A DNA stretch of 64,000 nucleotides from an uncultured Clostridia bacterium (GTDB lineage: Bacteria; Bacillota; Clostridia; UMGS1883): positions 1-64,000 of the forward strand of contig CANQRB010000002.1 of NCBI GenBank assembly GCA_947626145.1, written 5' to 3'. Shown piece by piece: positions 54,348-63,794 of the stretch. The translations under genes were made by a program, and so were the position numbers. Within the stretch, counting starts at the first letter, position 1; the number at the start of each line of letters is the position of its first letter. The notes beneath the pieces are model-generated. The model saw nothing but the letters and a program-made list of their open reading frames with translations, was not told where the DNA came from and ran no database searches.

Positions 54348-57101
54348 ATGAAAAAACTATTTGCCGCAATTCTGGCCGTGGGGACGGTCTTTGCCGCCTC
54401 GGCGGCCATGGCTCAGGACGAGGCCGCCGTACTGCCGGCCTTCGACGTGACGCTGAACGGCCAGAAGGTTGACAGCCAAAACAGGGAATACCCTCTGTTC
54501 GTGTACAGGGACATCACCTATTTCCCAATGACCTATTTTGACTGCCGCTTCCTTGGCCTAACCACAGACTGGGACGACCGGGCTTACACTCTGACCATCA
54601 ACAAAGAGAATATCGCCGGAATGTATCGGGACTACGCCTCCGAAACGAATAACCCCGACAGTTGGACCGTGCGTCCGGTGGAGGTTCCCGTCGGTCAGGA
54701 GTCCCGCTACACGGGGGAATGTGTTGAGCCCGCTCACTTTGTCACCTATGTGAACGGTAAGGAGGTCGGCGGCGGGGAATACCCCCTCATGACCCTGCGG
54801 GGCGTGACCTACTTCCCCCTGACATGGGAGTACGCCCACGATATGTTCGGTTGGGACTACGGCTTTGACGAAAACGGCCTGAACATAAGCAGTGACAACT
54901 ACCACACCGAAATTTTAAACTTGCCCGGCTTCGACGGCACAAACGCGGCCGAGTACGGCGGATATTACTTCTATCAGGCGGGGCAGGAGATACGCCTTGC
55001 CCCCATGGACAATCTTTCCGCCGCCGAGACGGTTTATACCATGCCTTTGCCGCCTTATCATGTGGGAGATGAAATCATGTGGGGAGACGTCGCCTATCCC
55101 GCCCAGTTCAGCATCCGGGACGGCGAGCTGCGTATGACCTTCACCGACGTTGACACGGCTACCTTCACCAGCGTTTACAGTTTTAAGTACGATCCGGCCC
55201 AAAATACCTTTGTGGAGGACAATAGGCCCGACACCGTGAGCAACCCCACCGGGCCGGACACCCGTTATTATTATGCGGACGACATTGTTGTCAGGATAGG
55301 GTATACCGCCTCGTACAGCCGGGGCGGCGAGGAGGTCAGCCTTAAGGAGCTGGGCAACGCCTACGGCTGCCGTGTCCTCGGCCACAGGCTCTATCTCCGC
55401 TGCGGCCCGGCCAAGGGCTATGACAGCGGCGCCTTGTCCGACTTGTACATGGTGGACATGGACACCGGCGAGATAACCCTCGTAACTCGGGGAATAAACG
55501 GATTTTGGGCCTTTGAGGGGCCGGAGGGCGACCTTATCTACACCTATACCGACGGCGAGGGCCTTGTGCGCCTTGACACCGACGAGGTGATAATATACAA
55601 CGCCGATTATTGGGTGTCTTACGCTTATAAGACATTGGAGTTGACCCTTCTTGGCGAGGAGCTGGCCGTATACAGCCGCGACGACGGCCATACCCGACTT
55701 CAAGTCTTTCCTGAGTATGGCTCCGGCCAACCCCGGGAAATACTGTCGTCCGATGCTTACGGCAGCTACGGCGGCTTTGACGGCGGATTTTATGTTTGTC
55801 TGGATGAGGAGCTGCCCGAGGACAAGTACCGCATAGCCATACTCCGGGAGGGCAGGGAGCCCTATCTCAGCTCCGACGTTCCGGAAAGCTGGTACGGCAA
55901 AGTTTTTGCGGAGGGCGGCGACGCGATCTATGTCACCGAGGGCAAGGCCGTGCGCGTAACTCTTGACCGCAAGGCGGAGCCCTACAGCGCCCACCGGAGC
56001 GAGATATTGAACCTGCCCGGCACCATAGCCGTCACCGACGGGGAATACTATTACTATCAGGACTCCGATTTGAACGCCTACCGCACTCCGGTGGACGACC
56101 TTAACTCCCCTCAGCTGATAATGGACTTCGGCTGGGAGCCCGGCAAAGGCATGGGCCCCGGCGTCAGCTATTGGCCGGAGGACGGCGGTATGATAATGGA
56201 GACCGTCAGGGGCAGCTCGCCGATAATGAGCAGCACCTATGTTTACCGCATAGGCCCCGACGGTCAGGCGGAGGAGATAGACAGCTGGGGCAACAGCGCC
56301 GGCAACGTCAACAGAATTTACGTTGACGGCGGGCTCTCCGTCACGATGAGCGACTGGGGCGGCCCCGGCGGCAACAGGGTGAGCTATACCTACAACGGTG
56401 AGGAATACAAAATAAGCGACATCAGTGACGGGGCCTACGGACAGGTGGGCTACGACGGTATAATAAAGCTGACCCGTGACTTTTACCGACTGGGGGATTA
56501 TCTGTACTTCACCGGCTGGCAGTTTGAGGACGAAGCAACCCAGGCCGGCGACAGCAGCCTTTTCCGGGTGCGTTTGGGCGAAACCGAAGTGGAGAAGGTT
56601 CTTGACGGAGTGGGACGGTTTTACATCTTTGACGCTCCCGACGGGGACACCGTGGTTTATTGGAACGACGGCAAGCTCCTGCGCCACTGCCTTGACACCG
56701 GAAAAACCACTGTCATGATGAAAACGGAGCAGCCCTTCTTCTGCGCCGGCGGCGATGAAAAGCTGGCGGTCGCCCTGTCCGGTGAGGACTACGGCTGGCC
56801 CCGTGAGATAAGAGCCGACCTGCTCATCTTTGACGATTACGGCAGAGGCGAGGGCAGGCTCATTCATCAGGGGCTGGATAATTCCGTGGCCGGAAAATCC
56901 GGCAACCTTGTCTATGTCAGAGAGAGGAACGACAACGAGGACATCAACACCTTCTTTACCGCCGTGGATACCACCGTCAGCGACGAGCCATATTATTCCT
57001 CCGATCGGGTCAGCGAATTGTGGTACTATGACGGAATAATCACCTATTACGGATATTCGGGAAACGGCGGAGCGCTGAAAAAAGTAGACCTTGGGGAGTG
57101 A
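54348..57101 (+). CDS. Secreted stalk-domain/propeller-like protein, long copy
   Basis: AGGAGG precedes ATG 54348. The 917-residue protein has a signal peptide (LFAAILAVGTVFAASAAMA) and two copper amine oxidase-like stalk units (FDVTLNGQKVDSQNREYPLF near 28; FVTYVNGKEVGGGEYPL near 130). From about residue 185 there are repeated beta-rich units (LNLPGFDGTN; YYFYQAGQEIRLAPMDNL; YYYYQDSDLNAYRTPVDDL) like blades of a DUF5050-type propeller. No catalytic motif is seen. Its first 540 residues are almost the same as the next gene. Both have the same ECF-like promoter, so an envelope-stress-controlled surface or secreted role is likely. Confidence 0.8.
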   Translation: MKKLFAAILAVGTVFAASAAMAQDEAAVLPAFDVTLNGQKVDSQNREYPLFVYRDITYFPMTYFDCRFLGLTTDWDDRAYTLTINKENIAGMYRDYASETNNPDSWTVRPVEVPVGQESRYTGECVEPAHFVTYVNGKEVGGGEYPLMTLRGVTYFPLTWEYAHDMFGWDYGFDENGLNISSDNYHTEILNLPGFDGTNAAEYGGYYFYQAGQEIRLAPMDNLSAAETVYTMPLPPYHVGDEIMWGDVAYPAQFSIRDGELRMTFTDVDTATFTSVYSFKYDPAQNTFVEDNRPDTVSNPTGPDTRYYYADDIVVRIGYTASYSRGGEEVSLKELGNAYGCRVLGHRLYLRCGPAKGYDSGALSDLYMVDMDTGEITLVTRGINGFWAFEGPEGDLIYTYTDGEGLVRLDTDEVIIYNADYWVSYAYKTLELTLLGEELAVYSRDDGHTRLQVFPEYGSGQPREILSSDAYGSYGGFDGGFYVCLDEELPEDKYRIAILREGREPYLSSDVPESWYGKVFAEGGDAIYVTEGKAVRVTLDRKAEPYSAHRSEILNLPGTIAVTDGEYYYYQDSDLNAYRTPVDDLNSPQLIMDFGWEPGKGMGPGVSYWPEDGGMIMETVRGSSPIMSSTYVYRIGPDGQAEEIDSWGNSAGNVNRIYVDGGLSVTMSDWGGPGGNRVSYTYNGEEYKISDISDGAYGQVGYDGIIKLTRDFYRLGDYLYFTGWQFEDEATQAGDSSLFRVRLGETEVEKVLDGVGRFYIFDAPDGDTVVYWNDGKLLRHCLDTGKTTVMMKTEQPFFCAGGDEKLAVALSGEDYGWPREIRADLLIFDDYGRGEGRLIHQGLDNSVAGKSGNLVYVRERNDNEDINTFFTAVDTTVSDEPYYSSDRVSELWYYDGIITYYGYSGNGGALKKVDLGE

Positions 57102-57109
57102 AGAAGAAA

Positions 57110-57240
57110 ATGAGGAATTAGGAATGAGGAATTAGGAATATTTCGGGGCAGATACTTTGATTGTCGTGTATGTACCGTAAATATAACAATGACAAACGTA
57201 AAGCTTTCCCCTCGGGGGGAAGCCTCAGCACTGCTCTAAT
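57110..57240. repeat. Intergenic repeat D between the duplicated genes
   Basis: Runs of GAGGAATTAGGAATGAGGAAT-type units (from 57111) are followed by a short mixed segment that includes the AGATACTTTG...TACCGTAA module of repeat A and a GCTTTCCCCTCGGGGGGAAGC hairpin (57211-57231). The AT-rich leader that follows is a copy of that before 54348. Confidence 0.82.
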
Positions 57241-57346: not shown

Positions 57347-58969
57347 ATGAAAAAACTATTTGCCGCAATCGCGGCCGTGGGGACGGTCTTTGCCGCCTCG
57401 GCGGCCATGGCTCAGGACGAGGCCGCCGTATTGCCGGCCTTCGACGTGACGCTGAACGGCCAGAAGGTTGACAGCCAAAACAGGGAATATCCCTTGTTCG
57501 TGTACAGGGACATCACCTATTTCCCCATGACCTATTTTGACTGCCGCTTCCTTGGCCTCACCACAGACTGGGACGACCGGGCTTACACTTTGACCATCAA
57601 CAAAGAGAATATCGCCGGAATGTATCGGGACTACGCCTCCGAAACGAATAACCCCGACAGTTGGACCGTGCGTCCGGTGGAAGTCCCCGTCGGTCAGGAG
57701 TCCCGCTACACGGGGGAATGTGTTGAGCCTGCTCACTTTGTCACCTATGTGAACGGTAAGGAGGTCGGCGGCGGGGAATACCCCCTCATGACCCTGCGAG
57801 GCGTGACTTACTTCCCGCTGACATGGGAGTATGCCCACGATATGTTCGGCTGGGACTACGGCTTTGACGAAAACGGCCTGAACATAAGCAGCGACAACTA
57901 CCACACCGAAATTTTAAACTTGCCCGGCTTCGACGGCACAAACGTGGCCGAGTACGGCGGATATTACTTCTATCAGGCGGGGCAGGAGATACGCCGTGCC
58001 CCCGTGGACAATCTTTCCGCCGCCGAAACGGTCTACACCATGCCCCTTCCGCCATGGCATGAGGGGGCCGAATGGGGTACTGCTGCCAATCCCGCCATGT
58101 TCAGCGTCCGGGACGGTGAGCTGCGCATGACCTTTACCGACGTTGACACGGCCACGTTCACCGACTACCATAATATGAAGTACGATTCGGCCCAAAACAC
58201 CTTTGTTAATGACGACCGGCCCGACACCGTGAGTAATTCCACGGGGCCAAGCGTCCGTTATTATTATGCGGACGACATTGTTGTAAAAATAGGGTATACC
58301 GCCTCGTACAGCCGGGGCGGCGAGGAGGTCAGCCTTAGGGAGCTGGGCAACGCCTACGGCTGCCGTGTCCTCGGCCACAGGCTCTACCTCCGCTGCGCCC
58401 CCGCCGATGGCTATGACAGCGGCGCCTTGTCCGACTTGTATAAGGTGGACATGGATACCGGCGAGATAACCCTCGTAACTCGGGGAATAAACGGATTTTG
58501 GGCCTTTGAGGGGCCGGAGGGCGACCTTATCTACACCCGTACTTACGGCGAGGGTCTGACGCGCCTTGACACCGGCGAGCTGATCTACTCTGAAGCCGGT
58601 TTGGCGGAAGGTACTCACGCGGAGCTGGATATGGCTCTCCTTGGCGATGAGCTGGCCTTATACAGCCGCGCCGACGGCCTTACCCGGCTTCAGGTCTTTA
58701 CGGAGTACGGCTCCGGCCAACCCCGGGAAATAATGTCGTCCGATGCTTACGGCAGCTGCGGCAGCTTTGACGGCGGATTTTATGTTTATCTGGGCGGGGA
58801 GCTGCCCGAGGACAAGTACCGCGTCGCCATACTCCGGGAGGGCAGCGAGCCCTATCTCAGCTCCGACATTCCGGAAAGCTGGTACGGCAAAATTTTTGCG
58901 GAGGGCGGCGATGCGATCTATGTCACCGAGGGCAAGGCCGTGCGCGTGACTCTTGACCGCGAGGCATAA
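57347..58969 (+). CDS. Secreted stalk-domain/propeller-like protein, short copy
   Basis: This 540-residue copy of the previous gene keeps the signal peptide, both stalk units and the first propeller-like units. It stops where the long copy continues from RVTLDRKAEP; here the frame reads RVTLDREA and ends. Similarity to the long copy ends at this codon, so the 3' part was lost by deletion or never duplicated. The first 220 residues are almost identical, while internal loops (for example around residues 230-290 and 395-425) have diverged. It may still be a functional, shorter protein. proC follows after 43 bases with its own ribosome site. Confidence 0.78.
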   Translation: MKKLFAAIAAVGTVFAASAAMAQDEAAVLPAFDVTLNGQKVDSQNREYPLFVYRDITYFPMTYFDCRFLGLTTDWDDRAYTLTINKENIAGMYRDYASETNNPDSWTVRPVEVPVGQESRYTGECVEPAHFVTYVNGKEVGGGEYPLMTLRGVTYFPLTWEYAHDMFGWDYGFDENGLNISSDNYHTEILNLPGFDGTNVAEYGGYYFYQAGQEIRRAPVDNLSAAETVYTMPLPPWHEGAEWGTAANPAMFSVRDGELRMTFTDVDTATFTDYHNMKYDSAQNTFVNDDRPDTVSNSTGPSVRYYYADDIVVKIGYTASYSRGGEEVSLRELGNAYGCRVLGHRLYLRCAPADGYDSGALSDLYKVDMDTGEITLVTRGINGFWAFEGPEGDLIYTRTYGEGLTRLDTGELIYSEAGLAEGTHAELDMALLGDELALYSRADGLTRLQVFTEYGSGQPREIMSSDAYGSCGSFDGGFYVYLGGELPEDKYRVAILREGSEPYLSSDIPESWYGKIFAEGGDAIYVTEGKAVRVTLDREA

Positions 58970-59012: not shown

Positions 59013-59816
59013 ATGAAGCTTGGAGTTATCGGCGCCGGAAATATTGCCGGCGCAATCGTAAACGGAGTAGTACACGCCGGCATCATAAAGCCGGAGGACA
59101 TCACGGTCAGCGACCTCTATGACCGTAAGCTTGCCACCTTGAGGGAGCTTGGGGTGAACACCACCACCCATAACACCGAGGCCGCCGCCGCGGGAGAAGT
59201 GGTTCTGCTGGCCATCAAGCCCAACGTGGCCGAAAAGGTGCTGGCGGAAATAGCCCCCCACATTCAGGGTAAGCTGCTGGTCAGCGTGGTGGCGGGCTTC
59301 ACCCGTGAGCACATCGCCGGCATAGTGGGGGAGAGCGTGCGCATAGTCCGCACCATGCCCAACGTGCCCGCCCTTGTGGGCGAGGCCATGACCGTCCTCT
59401 GCCGCACCGATAACGTCAGCGACGGGGACTTTGACGGGGTTATAAAGATATTTGACGCCATAGGCAAGACCTCGGTTCTGGACGAGAGCCTTTTTGACGC
59501 AGCCACCGCCACCAACGGCAGCGGCCCGGCCTACGTTTTCGTGATGATCGAGGCCATGGCCGACGCGGCGGTGCTTCAGGGCATACCCCGTGACATCGCC
59601 TATCTGCTTGTGGAGCAGACGATTTTGGGCTCCGCCAAGCTGGCTCTGTCCACCATGGAGCACCCCGGCAAGCTCAAGGACATGGTCTGCTCCCCCGGCG
59701 GCACCACCATCGAGGCCATCTACCGCCTTGAGGAAAAGGGCCTTCGGGCAACCATGATAGACGCCGTAGCCGCCTGCGCCAAGAAGTCCGCCGAGCTTGG
59801 ACGGAAAAACGGATGA
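59013..59816 (+). CDS. proC: Pyrroline-5-carboxylate reductase
   Basis: AAAGGAAAGG precedes ATG 59013. The 267-residue protein has the Rossmann start KLGVIGAGNIAGAI, VVLLAIKPN, RTMPNVPALVGEAM and the C-terminal dimerisation signature with SPGGTTIEAIYRLEEKGLRA. It makes proline from P5C with NAD(P)H. Only this proline gene is in the window. Confidence 0.97.
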   Translation: MKLGVIGAGNIAGAIVNGVVHAGIIKPEDITVSDLYDRKLATLRELGVNTTTHNTEAAAAGEVVLLAIKPNVAEKVLAEIAPHIQGKLLVSVVAGFTREHIAGIVGESVRIVRTMPNVPALVGEAMTVLCRTDNVSDGDFDGVIKIFDAIGKTSVLDESLFDAATATNGSGPAYVFVMIEAMADAAVLQGIPRDIAYLLVEQTILGSAKLALSTMEHPGKLKDMVCSPGGTTIEAIYRLEEKGLRATMIDAVAACAKKSAELGRKNG

Positions 59817-59819
59817 GAA

Positions 59820-59850
59820 TGAGAAATTAGGAATTAGGAATTAGGAATAC
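59820..59850. repeat. Short GGAATTA repeat tract E
   Basis: Three AATTAGG units lie immediately after the proC stop, followed by the CTGACGTGGCAGTCGCGGT module that also follows the tract at 63789. No right arm is present, so this is a minimal member of the repeat family. Confidence 0.7.
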
Positions 59851-59906
59851 TGACGTGGCAGTCGCGGTATTGCCTTAAACTTTGGTATCAGTCTTTCATA
59901 AAAAAC

Positions 59907-59942: not shown

Positions 59943-60452
59943 ATGGATAAGCAAAGGAACATACTGCTTTTTTTCACGGGAATTTTCATGGTGGGACTGA
60001 CCCTGGGCAGCGTCATAGGGCTGGGCGGCACGGCGGAGGTGGAGCTGGCCGCAGCCTCGGCCCGTCGGTATATAGCCGTCTGCGCCGTGACGAACCTGCC
60101 CTTCTGGTGCTGTGTCCTGCTGCCCTGCCGCCGGGGGCACAGACTGGGCTTTTCCGCTCTGGCTCTTTTTATCAAGGGAGTGCTGCTTGGCTGCTCGGGG
60201 GTGTTTGTCCTCTCCGCCGGCGGGCCGGGGCGCTACCTGACCGACATATTCCCCCAAATTCTCTCCACGGTGCCTTTGTACATTTTTACCTCCGTCAGGA
60301 ACCTTGGCACCGAGGAGACTCCCTATACATATTACGCAATATTGACAAATTTCTGCCTCTCAATTTTGGCGGATTTTTTCTCATCTTGTGTTCAATACCT
60401 GATTTTTTTCACTTTTTCTACTATTCAAGGTTTTTTTATAACAAATTTGTGA
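59943..60452 (+). CDS. Polytopic membrane protein, candidate SpoIIM
   Basis: The 169-residue protein is almost entirely membrane helices (about five), starting LLFFTGIFMVGLTLGSVIGL and with LPFWCCVLLPCRRGHRLGF in the middle. Topology and the FxxGxxxGs-type first helix recall stage II sporulation protein M, and in Firmicutes spoIIM commonly sits near xerD, as here. The length is a little below the usual 200 or so. Sequence similarity cannot be judged by eye with certainty; an unrelated membrane protein is possible. Expression is likely limited by the hairpin just before its start. Confidence 0.5.
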   Translation: MDKQRNILLFFTGIFMVGLTLGSVIGLGGTAEVELAAASARRYIAVCAVTNLPFWCCVLLPCRRGHRLGFSALALFIKGVLLGCSGVFVLSAGGPGRYLTDIFPQILSTVPLYIFTSVRNLGTEETPYTYYAILTNFCLSILADFFSSCVQYLIFFTFSTIQGFFITNL

Positions 60453-60543: not shown

Positions 60544-61428
60544 ATGAATAAACTTATCGACGATTTTACTCTTTTTTTGTCAAAAAAACACAGGGTAAGC
60601 AAAAATACCCTCATGTCATACCGGCGGGATGTGGAAGCCTTCCTTAACGGACTGGGGCTTGAAGAACCCGAAGCCTGCTTCGCCGTCACGAGGGACAGGG
60701 TGCAGGAGTACGTTCATGGCCTTGAACTGGAGGGCAAGGCCGATTCCACCGTGCTCCGCAGCGCCAGCTCCATACGCAGCTTTTACGGCTTCCTCGCGGA
60801 GCGGGGCCTTGTGGAGGAAAATCCCGCCGACAGTCTGATCCTGCCCTCCGCCTCGCGTAAGGCGCCCGTGGTTCTCACTCCGGGCGAGATAAGCCGGCTC
60901 ATGGCTCAGCCCAAGGTGGGCGAGGCCAAGGGAGCCCGGGACAAGGCCATGCTGGAGTTGCTCTACGCCACGGGCATGAAGGTTTCGGAGCTGATCTCCG
61001 TGGAGCTTCGGGACATCGATCTGACCGAGGGCGTGGTCGTATGCAATAACGGCGAGCACTCCCGAGTGATACCTATGGGCGGCGCGGCCGAGGAGGCGGT
61101 AAGGTATTATCTGGAAAACGTTCGTGACGGGATGGTGGAAAACCAGAGGATAAAGACGCTTTTCGTGAATTGCAGCGGCCAGCCCATGACCCGCCAGGGC
61201 TTCTGGAAGCTGATAAAGGGCTATATCGAGGCGGCCGGCATAAAAAAGCGCGTCACTCCGCAGACTCTGCGCCACTCCTTTGCCGTGCATCTGCTCCAGA
61301 ACGGGGCCGACGCGGCCGTGGTTTCCCAGATGATGGGGTATAGCGACGCGGTTTCCACCAAGGTATACAGCGAAATGCTCCGTGACCGTATGAAAAAAGT
61401 ATATAACCGCTCCCACCCGAGAGCGTGA
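60544..61428 (+). CDS. xerD: XerD-family tyrosine recombinase with altered active site
   Basis: The 294-residue protein has the XerC/D layout: an N-terminal SAM-like core-binding domain (about 1-100) and a catalytic domain. Several catalytic positions differ from the family: Lys146 in YATGMKVSEL where Arg is expected, Asn168/169 where the beta-hairpin Lys should be, Gln240 in TPQTLRHSF where His is expected, and Tyr266 in MMGYSD where His is expected. Arg243 and the nucleophile Tyr275 (STKVYSE) are kept. It is full length with no stops or frameshifts, so it is not a simple pseudogene. It may be a structural partner or a control factor rather than an active recombinase. Confidence 0.8.
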   Translation: MNKLIDDFTLFLSKKHRVSKNTLMSYRRDVEAFLNGLGLEEPEACFAVTRDRVQEYVHGLELEGKADSTVLRSASSIRSFYGFLAERGLVEENPADSLILPSASRKAPVVLTPGEISRLMAQPKVGEAKGARDKAMLELLYATGMKVSELISVELRDIDLTEGVVVCNNGEHSRVIPMGGAAEEAVRYYLENVRDGMVENQRIKTLFVNCSGQPMTRQGFWKLIKGYIEAAGIKKRVTPQTLRHSFAVHLLQNGADAAVVSQMMGYSDAVSTKVYSEMLRDRMKKVYNRSHPRA

Positions 61429-61431
61429 GGT

Positions 61432-61676
61432 AATTAGGAATGAGGAGTGAGGAATTAGGAATATTAATTTGGCAGCTGCACTGTTTGTCGTTTTTGCCGT
61501 AAAACGGTGCAGGAAAGTTTGATTGATAATCCGTTTATCGTTGCCGCCGTAAACGCTTGATGGCGGATGCCCAATGGGCGCCCCTACGGAATCAATGTTA
61601 CGGCACAAGCACGGTCACACAAAACAATGTAACTGCCCTGCCAATATTCCTCATTCCTCATTCCTAACTCCTCATT
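61432..61676. repeat. Intergenic repeat F with inverted outer arms
   Basis: AATTAGGAATGAGGAGTGAGG units (61432-61464) are matched by their reverse complement at 61645-61676. Inside is GTAAACGCTTGATGGCGGAT (from 61549), shared with repeat B, and an ACTGCC segment near the right arm that can pair with GGCAG near the left. No gene is seen in 61429-61735. Confidence 0.85.
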
Positions 61677-62408: not shown

Positions 62409-62429
62409 TTGTTGTAAAGGATGAAGCAA

Positions 62430-63794
62430 ATGATACATAAATTTAAAAATCTGGGGCAGTACATAGTGCTGGATGTGGCCAGCGGAGCTATTCATTCCCT
62501 TGACGAAAAGGCTTATAATCTGCTGGACTGCTATGACGGAGAAGGCGTGTTTCAACCTGAAAAGGCGGCGGAGCTGGGCCTTGTGGGGCCGGAGTACGAC
62601 GAGGCCGCGGAGGAGCTCCAAAGCTTAATCGACGGGAAGCTTCTGTTCACAAAGGACATCTACGCCGAGATAGCCAGGCACTGGGACAAGCAGTCGGTGG
62701 TCAAGGCCCTCTGTCTCCACATCGCCCACGACTGCAACCTTCGATGCAAGTACTGCTTCGCCGACGGCGGCGAGTACATGGGTAAGCGTGAGCTCATGAG
62801 CGCCGAGGTGGGGAAGAAGGCCATTGATTTTGTGATTGAGCAGAGCGGGAACCGGAAAAATATCGAGATAGACTACTTCGGCGGCGAGCCCCTGATGAAT
62901 TTTGACGTGGTAAAGGAGATAACCGAGTACGCCAAGGAACAGGGGCGGCTCCACGGCAAGAGCTTCCGCTTCACCATAACCACCAACGGCGTTCTGCTGG
63001 ACGAGGACAAGCAGGCATATATTAATGAAAACATGAGCAACGTTGTCCTCTCGCTTGACGGGCGCAAAGAGGTTCACGACGCCGTCCGTGTCCGCGTGGA
63101 CGGCAGCGGCAGCTATGACCGTGTGGTGCCAAAATTCCAAAAGCTGGCCGACAGCCGGAATCAGAACAACTACTACGTGCGGGGCACCTTCACAAGGGAC
63201 AATCTGGACTTCGCCGAGGATGTGAAGCACCTTATGGACTTAGGCTTTGAGCAGATAAGCGTGGAGCCCGTTGTGGCCCCCGAAACCGAGGATTACTCCC
63301 TCCGCCGGGAGGATCTGCCCGCCATTTTTGCCGAGTACGATCGTTTGGTGGAACTGCTGACCAATACCCGCAAGAGCGGCAAATTCGTGAATTTCTTCCA
63401 TTTTATGATAGACCTTGAGCAGGGCCCCTGCGCCTACAAGCGGCTGTCCGGCTGCGGCAGCGGCCATGAGTATCTGGCGGTAACCCCCTCCGGCGACCTG
63501 TACCCCTGCCACCAGTTTGTGGGTAAGCCGGAATTCAAGATGGGTACCGTGTTCGAGGGCAAGCTGGATGAGAATATCAGAAAGCGCTTTATGAACAGCA
63601 ATATTTATACCAAGGAGGCCTGCTCCACCTGCTGGAACCGCTTCTATTGCAGCGGCGGCTGCGCGGCCAACGCCTTCAACATGAACGGCGACATAGACAA
63701 GCCCTACGAGATAGCCTGCGAGATGCAGAAAAAACGCACCGAGTGCGCCATCGCCATGGCCGCCGCTTTGAGCGAGGAGCGGAGTGAAAATTAG
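62430..63794 (+). CDS. scfB: SCIFF radical SAM maturase
   Basis: ATG 62430 (MIHKFKN) is preferred over 62421 because AAAGGA is eight bases away and family members begin in the same way. The 454-residue enzyme has a peptide-recognition (RRE-like) N-terminus, the radical SAM CxxxCxxC cluster site in DCNLRCKYCFADGG (near residue 105), the IDYFGGEPLM motif and a C-terminal SPASM domain with two auxiliary clusters (CGSGHEYLAVTPSGDLYPCH; CSTCWNRFYCSGGC). It installs thioether bridges between Cys and other residues of the SCIFF peptide. It is transcribed with the precursor through a weak terminator. Confidence 0.95.
   Translation: MIHKFKNLGQYIVLDVASGAIHSLDEKAYNLLDCYDGEGVFQPEKAAELGLVGPEYDEAAEELQSLIDGKLLFTKDIYAEIARHWDKQSVVKALCLHIAHDCNLRCKYCFADGGEYMGKRELMSAEVGKKAIDFVIEQSGNRKNIEIDYFGGEPLMNFDVVKEITEYAKEQGRLHGKSFRFTITTNGVLLDEDKQAYINENMSNVVLSLDGRKEVHDAVRVRVDGSGSYDRVVPKFQKLADSRNQNNYYVRGTFTRDNLDFAEDVKHLMDLGFEQISVEPVVAPETEDYSLRREDLPAIFAEYDRLVELLTNTRKSGKFVNFFHFMIDLEQGPCAYKRLSGCGSGHEYLAVTPSGDLYPCHQFVGKPEFKMGTVFEGKLDENIRKRFMNSNIYTKEACSTCWNRFYCSGGCAANAFNMNGDIDKPYEIACEMQKKRTECAIAMAAALSEERSEN

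Follow-up and report, generated by a model that had tools for sequence, protein, structure and literature searches.

A family-wide XerD with a degraded catalytic site in Clostridia, and a second Xer recombinase with a symmetric candidate dif site

The window analysed here is a stretch of 64,000 nucleotides from the genome of an uncultured Clostridia bacterium (G000; contig CANQRB010000002.1). Near its 3′ end lies an open reading frame that resembles the tyrosine recombinase XerD over its full length and departs from it in the active site. The original prediction held that four of six catalytic residues are lost from an intact frame, that selection acts on another function, e.g. as structural partner or regulator of a recombinase, and that chromosome dimer resolution would need a new explanation if the genome carries no other XerD. 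The locus thus raises two questions, what such a XerD is kept for and which enzyme resolves chromosome dimers. The features discussed are given in Table 1.

Table 1. Location and characteristics of the features discussed
Feature	Coordinates	Strand	Remarks
proC, pyrroline-5-carboxylate reductase	59013..59816	+	neighbours spoIIM-xerD in several Clostridia families
SpoIIM-like membrane protein, divergent	59943..60452	+	directly upstream of xerD; marks conserved spoIIM-xerD order
xerD orthologue, degraded catalytic site	60544..61428	+	294 aa, intact open reading frame, stop within coordinates
Lys146, codon AAG	60979..60981	+	at E. coli XerD Arg148 (Arg I); in 18 family members Lys 14, Ser 1, Arg 3
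Asn168-Asn169, codons AAT AAC	61045..61050	+	at Lys172; K-beta hairpin of Clostridia shorter by one residue
Gln240, codon CAG	61261..61263	+	at His244; in 18 family members Gln 17, Tyr 1
Arg243, codon CGC	61270..61272	+	equivalent to Arg247 (Arg II); does not vary in alignments A1 and A2
Tyr266, codon TAT	61339..61341	+	at His270; Tyr/Phe in 11 of 18 family members
Tyr275, codon TAC	61366..61368	+	equivalent to nucleophile Tyr279; does not vary in alignments A1 and A2
28-bp perfect inverted repeat (11+6+11), ATTCAACAAAA-TAAAAA-TTTTGTTGAAT	G000:C1:134901-134928		about 30 bp 5′ of x2 start
x2, second Xer	G000:C1:134958-135944		328 aa; outside the window, beside purA

The XerD of the window and its catalytic site

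The window XerD shows the two-domain Xer architecture, PF02899 plus PF00589, with Pfam profiles. Its best NCBIfam model is TIGR02225 (XerD), with 298.5 bits over positions 7–294 against a curated cut-off of 329.6. Among solved structures, E. coli XerD (1a0p) is matched from residue 12 to the C-terminal HPRA (E-value = 4.8e-47), and the match to 5dcf extends to residue 294. The AlphaFold model has a mean pLDDT of 90 and a pTM of 0.65, which leaves the relative placement of the two domains uncertain; 1a0p is also the closest solved structure in the fold comparison. The predicted intact, XerD-like frame is thus upheld by the length of the open reading frame and by the extent of the E. coli match.

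The gene neighbourhood is that of other Clostridia xerD genes. A spoIIM gene is present in 66 of 80 named Clostridia xerD loci, and is directly 5′ of xerD in those loci shown. The product of the corresponding gene in the window matches the SpoIIM profile weakly (E-value = 0.001) and gave no match in a Pfam search, and family orthologues at the same place reach E-values of up to 6e-13. By sequence, the window gene is a vertically inherited XerD of a Clostridia family and an orthologue of B. subtilis RipX.

Other elements surround the gene. Two genes 3′ of xerD, after a DUF3792 protein, positions 62421-63794 encode a SCIFF peptide maturase of the radical SAM/SPASM type (TIGR03974, 692 bits). Two very similar secreted proteins are encoded in tandem at 54348-57101 (917 aa) and 57347-58969 (540 aa), the second being a shorter copy; an NCBIfam search of the two gave no match, and tandem genes of this kind are also found beside proC in G003 and G006. 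A short intergenic repeat based on GAGGAATTAGGAAT flanks genes around xerD in both orientations (57109-57152, 59818-59861, 61432-61475, and 61622-61676).

Alignment to E. coli XerD confirms the predicted catalytic positions: R148-K172-H244-R247-H270-Y279 reads K-N-Q-R-Y-Y in the window XerD, which departs from the hexad R-K-H-R-H/W-Y. XerD orthologues are present in most of 60 relatives searched, and the catalytic columns were read from the 18 readable members of the family. All 18 are degraded, to differing degrees, and the predicted substitutions are therefore a property of the clade: H244 and K172 are lost in every one, R148 in 15 and H270 in 11, and R247 and Y279 are kept throughout. In all eight genus genomes XerD carries the pattern K/x/Q/R/[YF]/Y with no lysine at the second position. 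Sequence error, which had been named as a possible refutation, is excluded by the occurrence of the same changes in these independent assemblies.

The four losses are not of one kind. Among the 80 named Clostridia loci (L136-L215), K172 is lost in 78, R148 in nine, H244 in two, and H270 in none. In these 78 loci the K-beta hairpin, which bears K172 as the lysine of GKG, is shorter by one residue. The loss of K172 as a specific feature of the window XerD was therefore rejected; it is class-wide and older than the decay in the family. A neighbouring lysine or arginine may replace K172 in Clostridia XerD. The GKG lysine is also missing from the XerD of genera in which the other catalytic residues are intact. 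What stands of the predicted four losses as distinctive of the family is R148K, H244Q, and H270Y/F, and the sequence comparison indicates that these are a stepwise decay of the family's own.

About half of the class-conserved XerD positions that are changed or relaxed in the family lie in residues 238-244 and 266-273 of the window XerD, near the active site, and the RQGFWK motif, R243, Y275, and the C-terminal HPR are invariant in the class/family comparison. The alternative that XerD still recombines, possibly at a low rate or at different sites, through an altered active site in which Lys replaces Arg I, the hairpin Lys/Arg is displaced, and the histidines are Gln and Tyr, has to be weighed against this distribution. 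Arg II and the nucleophile Tyr are indeed invariant and three family members keep Arg I; moreover both histidine positions are variable in some active tyrosine recombinases. However, the relaxation of conserved positions falls in the active-site segments, and most members lose three to four of the six positions together. R225 of the Tn1549 integrase, a relative with a solved structure, is presumably Arg I, in which case R225K matches the Arg-I-to-Lys change of the window. R225K inactivates that integrase and served as the inactive mutant (PMC5871717). Continued recombination by XerD is thus considered unlikely, and it is very probable, judged from the residues present, that the window XerD is unable to recombine.

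A second recombinase and its candidate dif site

The genome shows seven PF00589 matches. The search for another Xer that the original prediction had called for yielded x2, which carries all six catalytic residues, with RKHRHY complete in 11/11 family copies, and which evolves slowly (dN/dS = 0.021). x2 falls below the cut-offs of the XerC, XerD, XerS, and archaeal XerA models, e.g. with 147.3 bits for XerS (cut-off 267) and 198.8 bits for XerA (cut-off 220). An FtsK with a gamma domain is encoded in the genome as well.

L003, L005, and L006 were tried as further Xer candidates and rejected as resembling integrases of mobile elements, and L007 is a fragment. L004 contains an intact Xer-like recombinase of 290 aa in which the catalytic residues seem to be complete (L004:1456-2328, region of G000:C6:74497-74925). 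Its gene has an HflX-like GTPase gene on one side and a dipicolinate synthase B-like gene on the other, and relatives of similar size are found in other genomes of the genus. The dipicolinate synthase-like gene suggests that sporulation genes are retained; the SpoIIM-like neighbour of xerD has diverged past Pfam recognition in the genus.

The 28-bp inverted repeat 5′ of x2, in full ATTCAACAAAATAAAAATTTTGTTGAAT, is A+T-rich and occurs as one exact copy per genome. It is identical and perfect in 11/11 family genomes, and these copies lie in a non-coding position. In other families the site recurs 5′ of x2 with different yet matched arms, i.e. the arms change together. Twenty-nine of 33 representative sites are perfectly symmetric, with 17 different perfect arms, and shuffled upstream regions attain an 11/11 arm match in 0 of 3300 cases. 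The class pattern ATTNNNCNAAATNNNNNTTTNGNNNAAT is found in 49 of 63 genomes with x2 vs 3 of 45 without it (Fisher p = 2.7e-14), nearly always once. As to the three x2-negative matches, in G039 a contig ends in an x2-like fragment, and the match in G085 is asymmetric. Direct inspection showed perfect sites that depart from the pattern in six x2 genomes (G050, G057, G061, G066, G089, and G093). Class-wide, the pattern is present in 111 of 293 genomes and is again nearly always single. The Oscillospiraceae MAG JAAWHG010000001.1 carries x2 with a variant site (L190:9151).

The repeat lies mostly in the leader just 5′ of the x2 start codon, a position that would also suit an operator or an RNA hairpin controlling x2, and a hairpin would likewise conserve the pairing of the arms. 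However, the 11-6-11 spacing is fixed, and the site is kept as a single copy when it is away from x2: it is 66 kb distant in G051 and 12 kb distant in G040, lies 3′ of x2 in G063 and G090, and is on another contig than x2 in G084, G101, and G049. GC skew, sampled in stretches, bears on the same point, its change of sign marking the replication terminus. In G051, which like G063 is a single-contig genome, the skew flips between 2,360,000 and 2,370,000; the site is at 2,365,777, so that the flip marks the site and not x2. In G063 the sign changes between 1,465,000 and 1,475,000, with the site at 1,470,833. On the x2 contig of the window genome the values left of the site are positive overall, with a weak and noisy signal, and every stretch sampled on its right is negative. 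A purely regulatory role of the repeat is therefore highly improbable.

The 11+6+11 architecture, which is that of dif, the single copy, the co-occurrence with x2, the covariation of the arms, the separability from x2, and the position relative to GC skew together make the 28-bp repeat fit a dif used by one recombinase. It is very likely, from this comparative evidence, that x2 and the repeat are a recombinase/dif pair, and x2 would be the enzyme that cuts the site. Dimer resolution thus appears to belong to x2 at a symmetric terminus site. The predicted puzzle of dimer resolution without another XerD is answered for this genome by an enzyme with a full catalytic set and a dif-like site; the original interpretation as a whole is supported in part.

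A search for the classical Firmicutes dif, with TATAATNNNNNNATTATRTNAA and with a shortened version of it, yielded scattered matches only, with a modest excess over the reversed-pattern control that is confounded by promoter −10 boxes. A viral collection searched with two site sequences contained no copy of them.

What XerD may be kept for

The dN/dS of the window XerD is 0.083 (G000 vs G007) and ranges from 0.08 to 0.26 across those genus pairs where it is measurable, dS being saturated in many pairs. The XerD frames are open in 18/18 family sequences, and identity across the family is about 40–46%. With the dN/dS of about 0.08, the intact predicted fold, and the retained spoIIM-xerD order, the window gene is taken to be the true orthologue of XerD, retained although its catalytic site is gone. 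That selection acts on something other than recombination, as predicted, is also supported by the changes, which are largely confined to the active-site segments while other motifs are invariant. Thus the sequences indicate that the catalytic site of XerD is decayed family-wide while selection preserves the protein.

It might be argued that XerD is in early decay and looks selected merely since the loss is recent. Its dN/dS is several times that of x2 (0.083 vs 0.021), and several x2-bearing genomes are without XerD. But the value is far under 1 in every measurable pair, and the degradation is common to a whole family that has diverged to the identities given above with all frames open. A neutral gene would not hold its frame that long, and XerD is therefore not regarded as neutral; recent loss is a very unlikely explanation.

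A catalytically silent partner is another alternative. XerD would bind dif beside x2 and stimulate or regulate the exchange by x2, comparable to the mutual activation of XerC and XerD in E. coli. Both domains of the fold and the HPRA tail at the C terminus are retained, and FtsK with its gamma domain, the usual activator of Xer, is at hand. Yet the arms of the site are identical and covarying, leaving no distinct XerD arm, and x2 and the site are present in G040, G042, G049, and G054, where no XerD is detectable. The structural partner of the original prediction is thereby disfavoured, and a silent partner is fairly unlikely.

The explanation that is slightly favoured is a retired XerD that is kept for a non-catalytic task, with x2 and its dif taking over dimer resolution. 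Each of the two identical arms in a dif would be bound by one x2 monomer, two such sites would synapse at the terminus, and x2 would carry out both strand exchanges, probably under the control of FtsK. Dimer resolution would have passed to a single, fully catalytic Xer. As the site would have no XerD arm, XerD could lose catalysis without penalty and still be selected for another role. Freed of catalysis, it would have lost, step by step, the general acid, Arg I, and the two histidines, keeping the fold, the most conserved motifs, and the C-terminal tail. Its remaining task would most likely be to bind DNA at specific sites and to unload SMC-ScpAB close to the terminus.

This last step draws on analogy. 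Unloading of SMC by XerD is expected to need no catalysis. In B. subtilis, XerD is described as a sequence-specific SMC unloader (PMC12322038, PMC8357415, PMC10945525). SMC unloading is the best-supported candidate for the role retained by XerD, and is put forward tentatively. The scpA gene is located about 4–8 kb from xerD in six other families (G037, G046, G047, G048, G051, and G056). ScpA is present in G000 and in 98 of 108 relatives, and also in genomes without XerD; its co-occurrence with XerD was rejected as a test of the SMC link since a near-universal protein does not discriminate. Against the favoured explanation as a whole, the nucleophile Tyr and Arg II are not obviously needed by a purely structural protein and are nevertheless invariant.

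Some genomes do not fit a simple exchange of XerD for x2. XerD, often degraded, is found without x2 and without the site in G023, G024, G028, G036, and G052 and in the family MAGs G005, G010, and G012. Several of the x2-negative family genomes are incomplete MAGs; the XerD genomes negative for both x2 and the site include near-complete ones, and their XerD shows various losses. G073 resembles the first five in having XerD or other recombinases with x2 and the 28-bp site absent. Because XerD decays also in genomes without x2 or site, x2 alone cannot account for every XerD loss.

Significance and comparison with known Xer systems

A dif located exactly and class-wide would mark the terminus precisely, and in many gut bacteria mobile elements would be likely to enter there; x2 with its symmetric arms would be a recombinase suited to work on mechanism. 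A family with a selected XerD whose catalytic site is lost is a natural test of whether the chromosome-organizing role stands apart from recombination. The annotation "XerD" in Clostridia is also no guarantee of a working XerCD/dif system. More speculatively, it is possible that much of Clostridia has an undescribed one-enzyme Xer system consisting of x2 and a perfectly symmetric 28-bp dif, that the ancestral XerD was released from recombination, and that in the family of the window XerD is a pseudoenzyme surviving solely as a terminus-binding SMC unloader; the two jobs of XerD would then have been separated naturally.

The closest relative of the window XerD in a known system is B. subtilis XerD (RipX), its orthologue according to best match and to the spoIIM-xerD gene order seen in Clostridia. 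The SMC role of the B. subtilis protein is reported to operate through binding at specific DNA sites close to the terminus (PMC12322038, PMC8357415). However, together with XerC (CodV) the B. subtilis protein also recombines actively at dif (PMC13220808), whereas the window XerD is without four catalytic residues. With NF002685 the window XerD scores 46 bits, against a cut-off of 178. That model perhaps represents the streptococcal "XerD-like" protein, a XerD relative that is annotated as taking no part in cleavage at difSL, is retained by bacteria with a single Xer, and may be a parallel.

Single-recombinase Xer systems have been described in streptococci and lactococci, Helicobacter and Campylobacter, archaea, and Legionellales (PMC5357621, PMC9765430), and a literature search of partial coverage found none of Clostridia. 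XerS/difSL of streptococci and XerH/difH of Helicobacter and Campylobacter are similar to x2 in that a single catalytic Xer has a dif adjoining its gene (PMC5357621); however, the arms of difSL and difH are imperfect, whereas those of the x2 site are perfect 11-bp repeats with a 6-bp spacer. XerL of Legionellales is likewise a single recombinase with a long uninterrupted inverted-repeat dif (PMC9765430), but belongs to another phylum, and in L. pneumophila xerL is more than 400 kb from dif, whereas usually no more than about 100 bp separate x2 from its site. The likeness and the distinction of x2 with respect to XerH and XerL are drawn from descriptions of the systems; the model-library matches included neither a XerH nor a XerL model. 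XerA of archaea also acts alone on a 28-bp terminus site; x2, in contrast, is bacterial, is usually linked to its site, and falls short of the XerA model. Thus x2 and its site are set apart from XerS, XerH, XerA, and XerL by the perfect arms together with the usual gene linkage, and by the host class.
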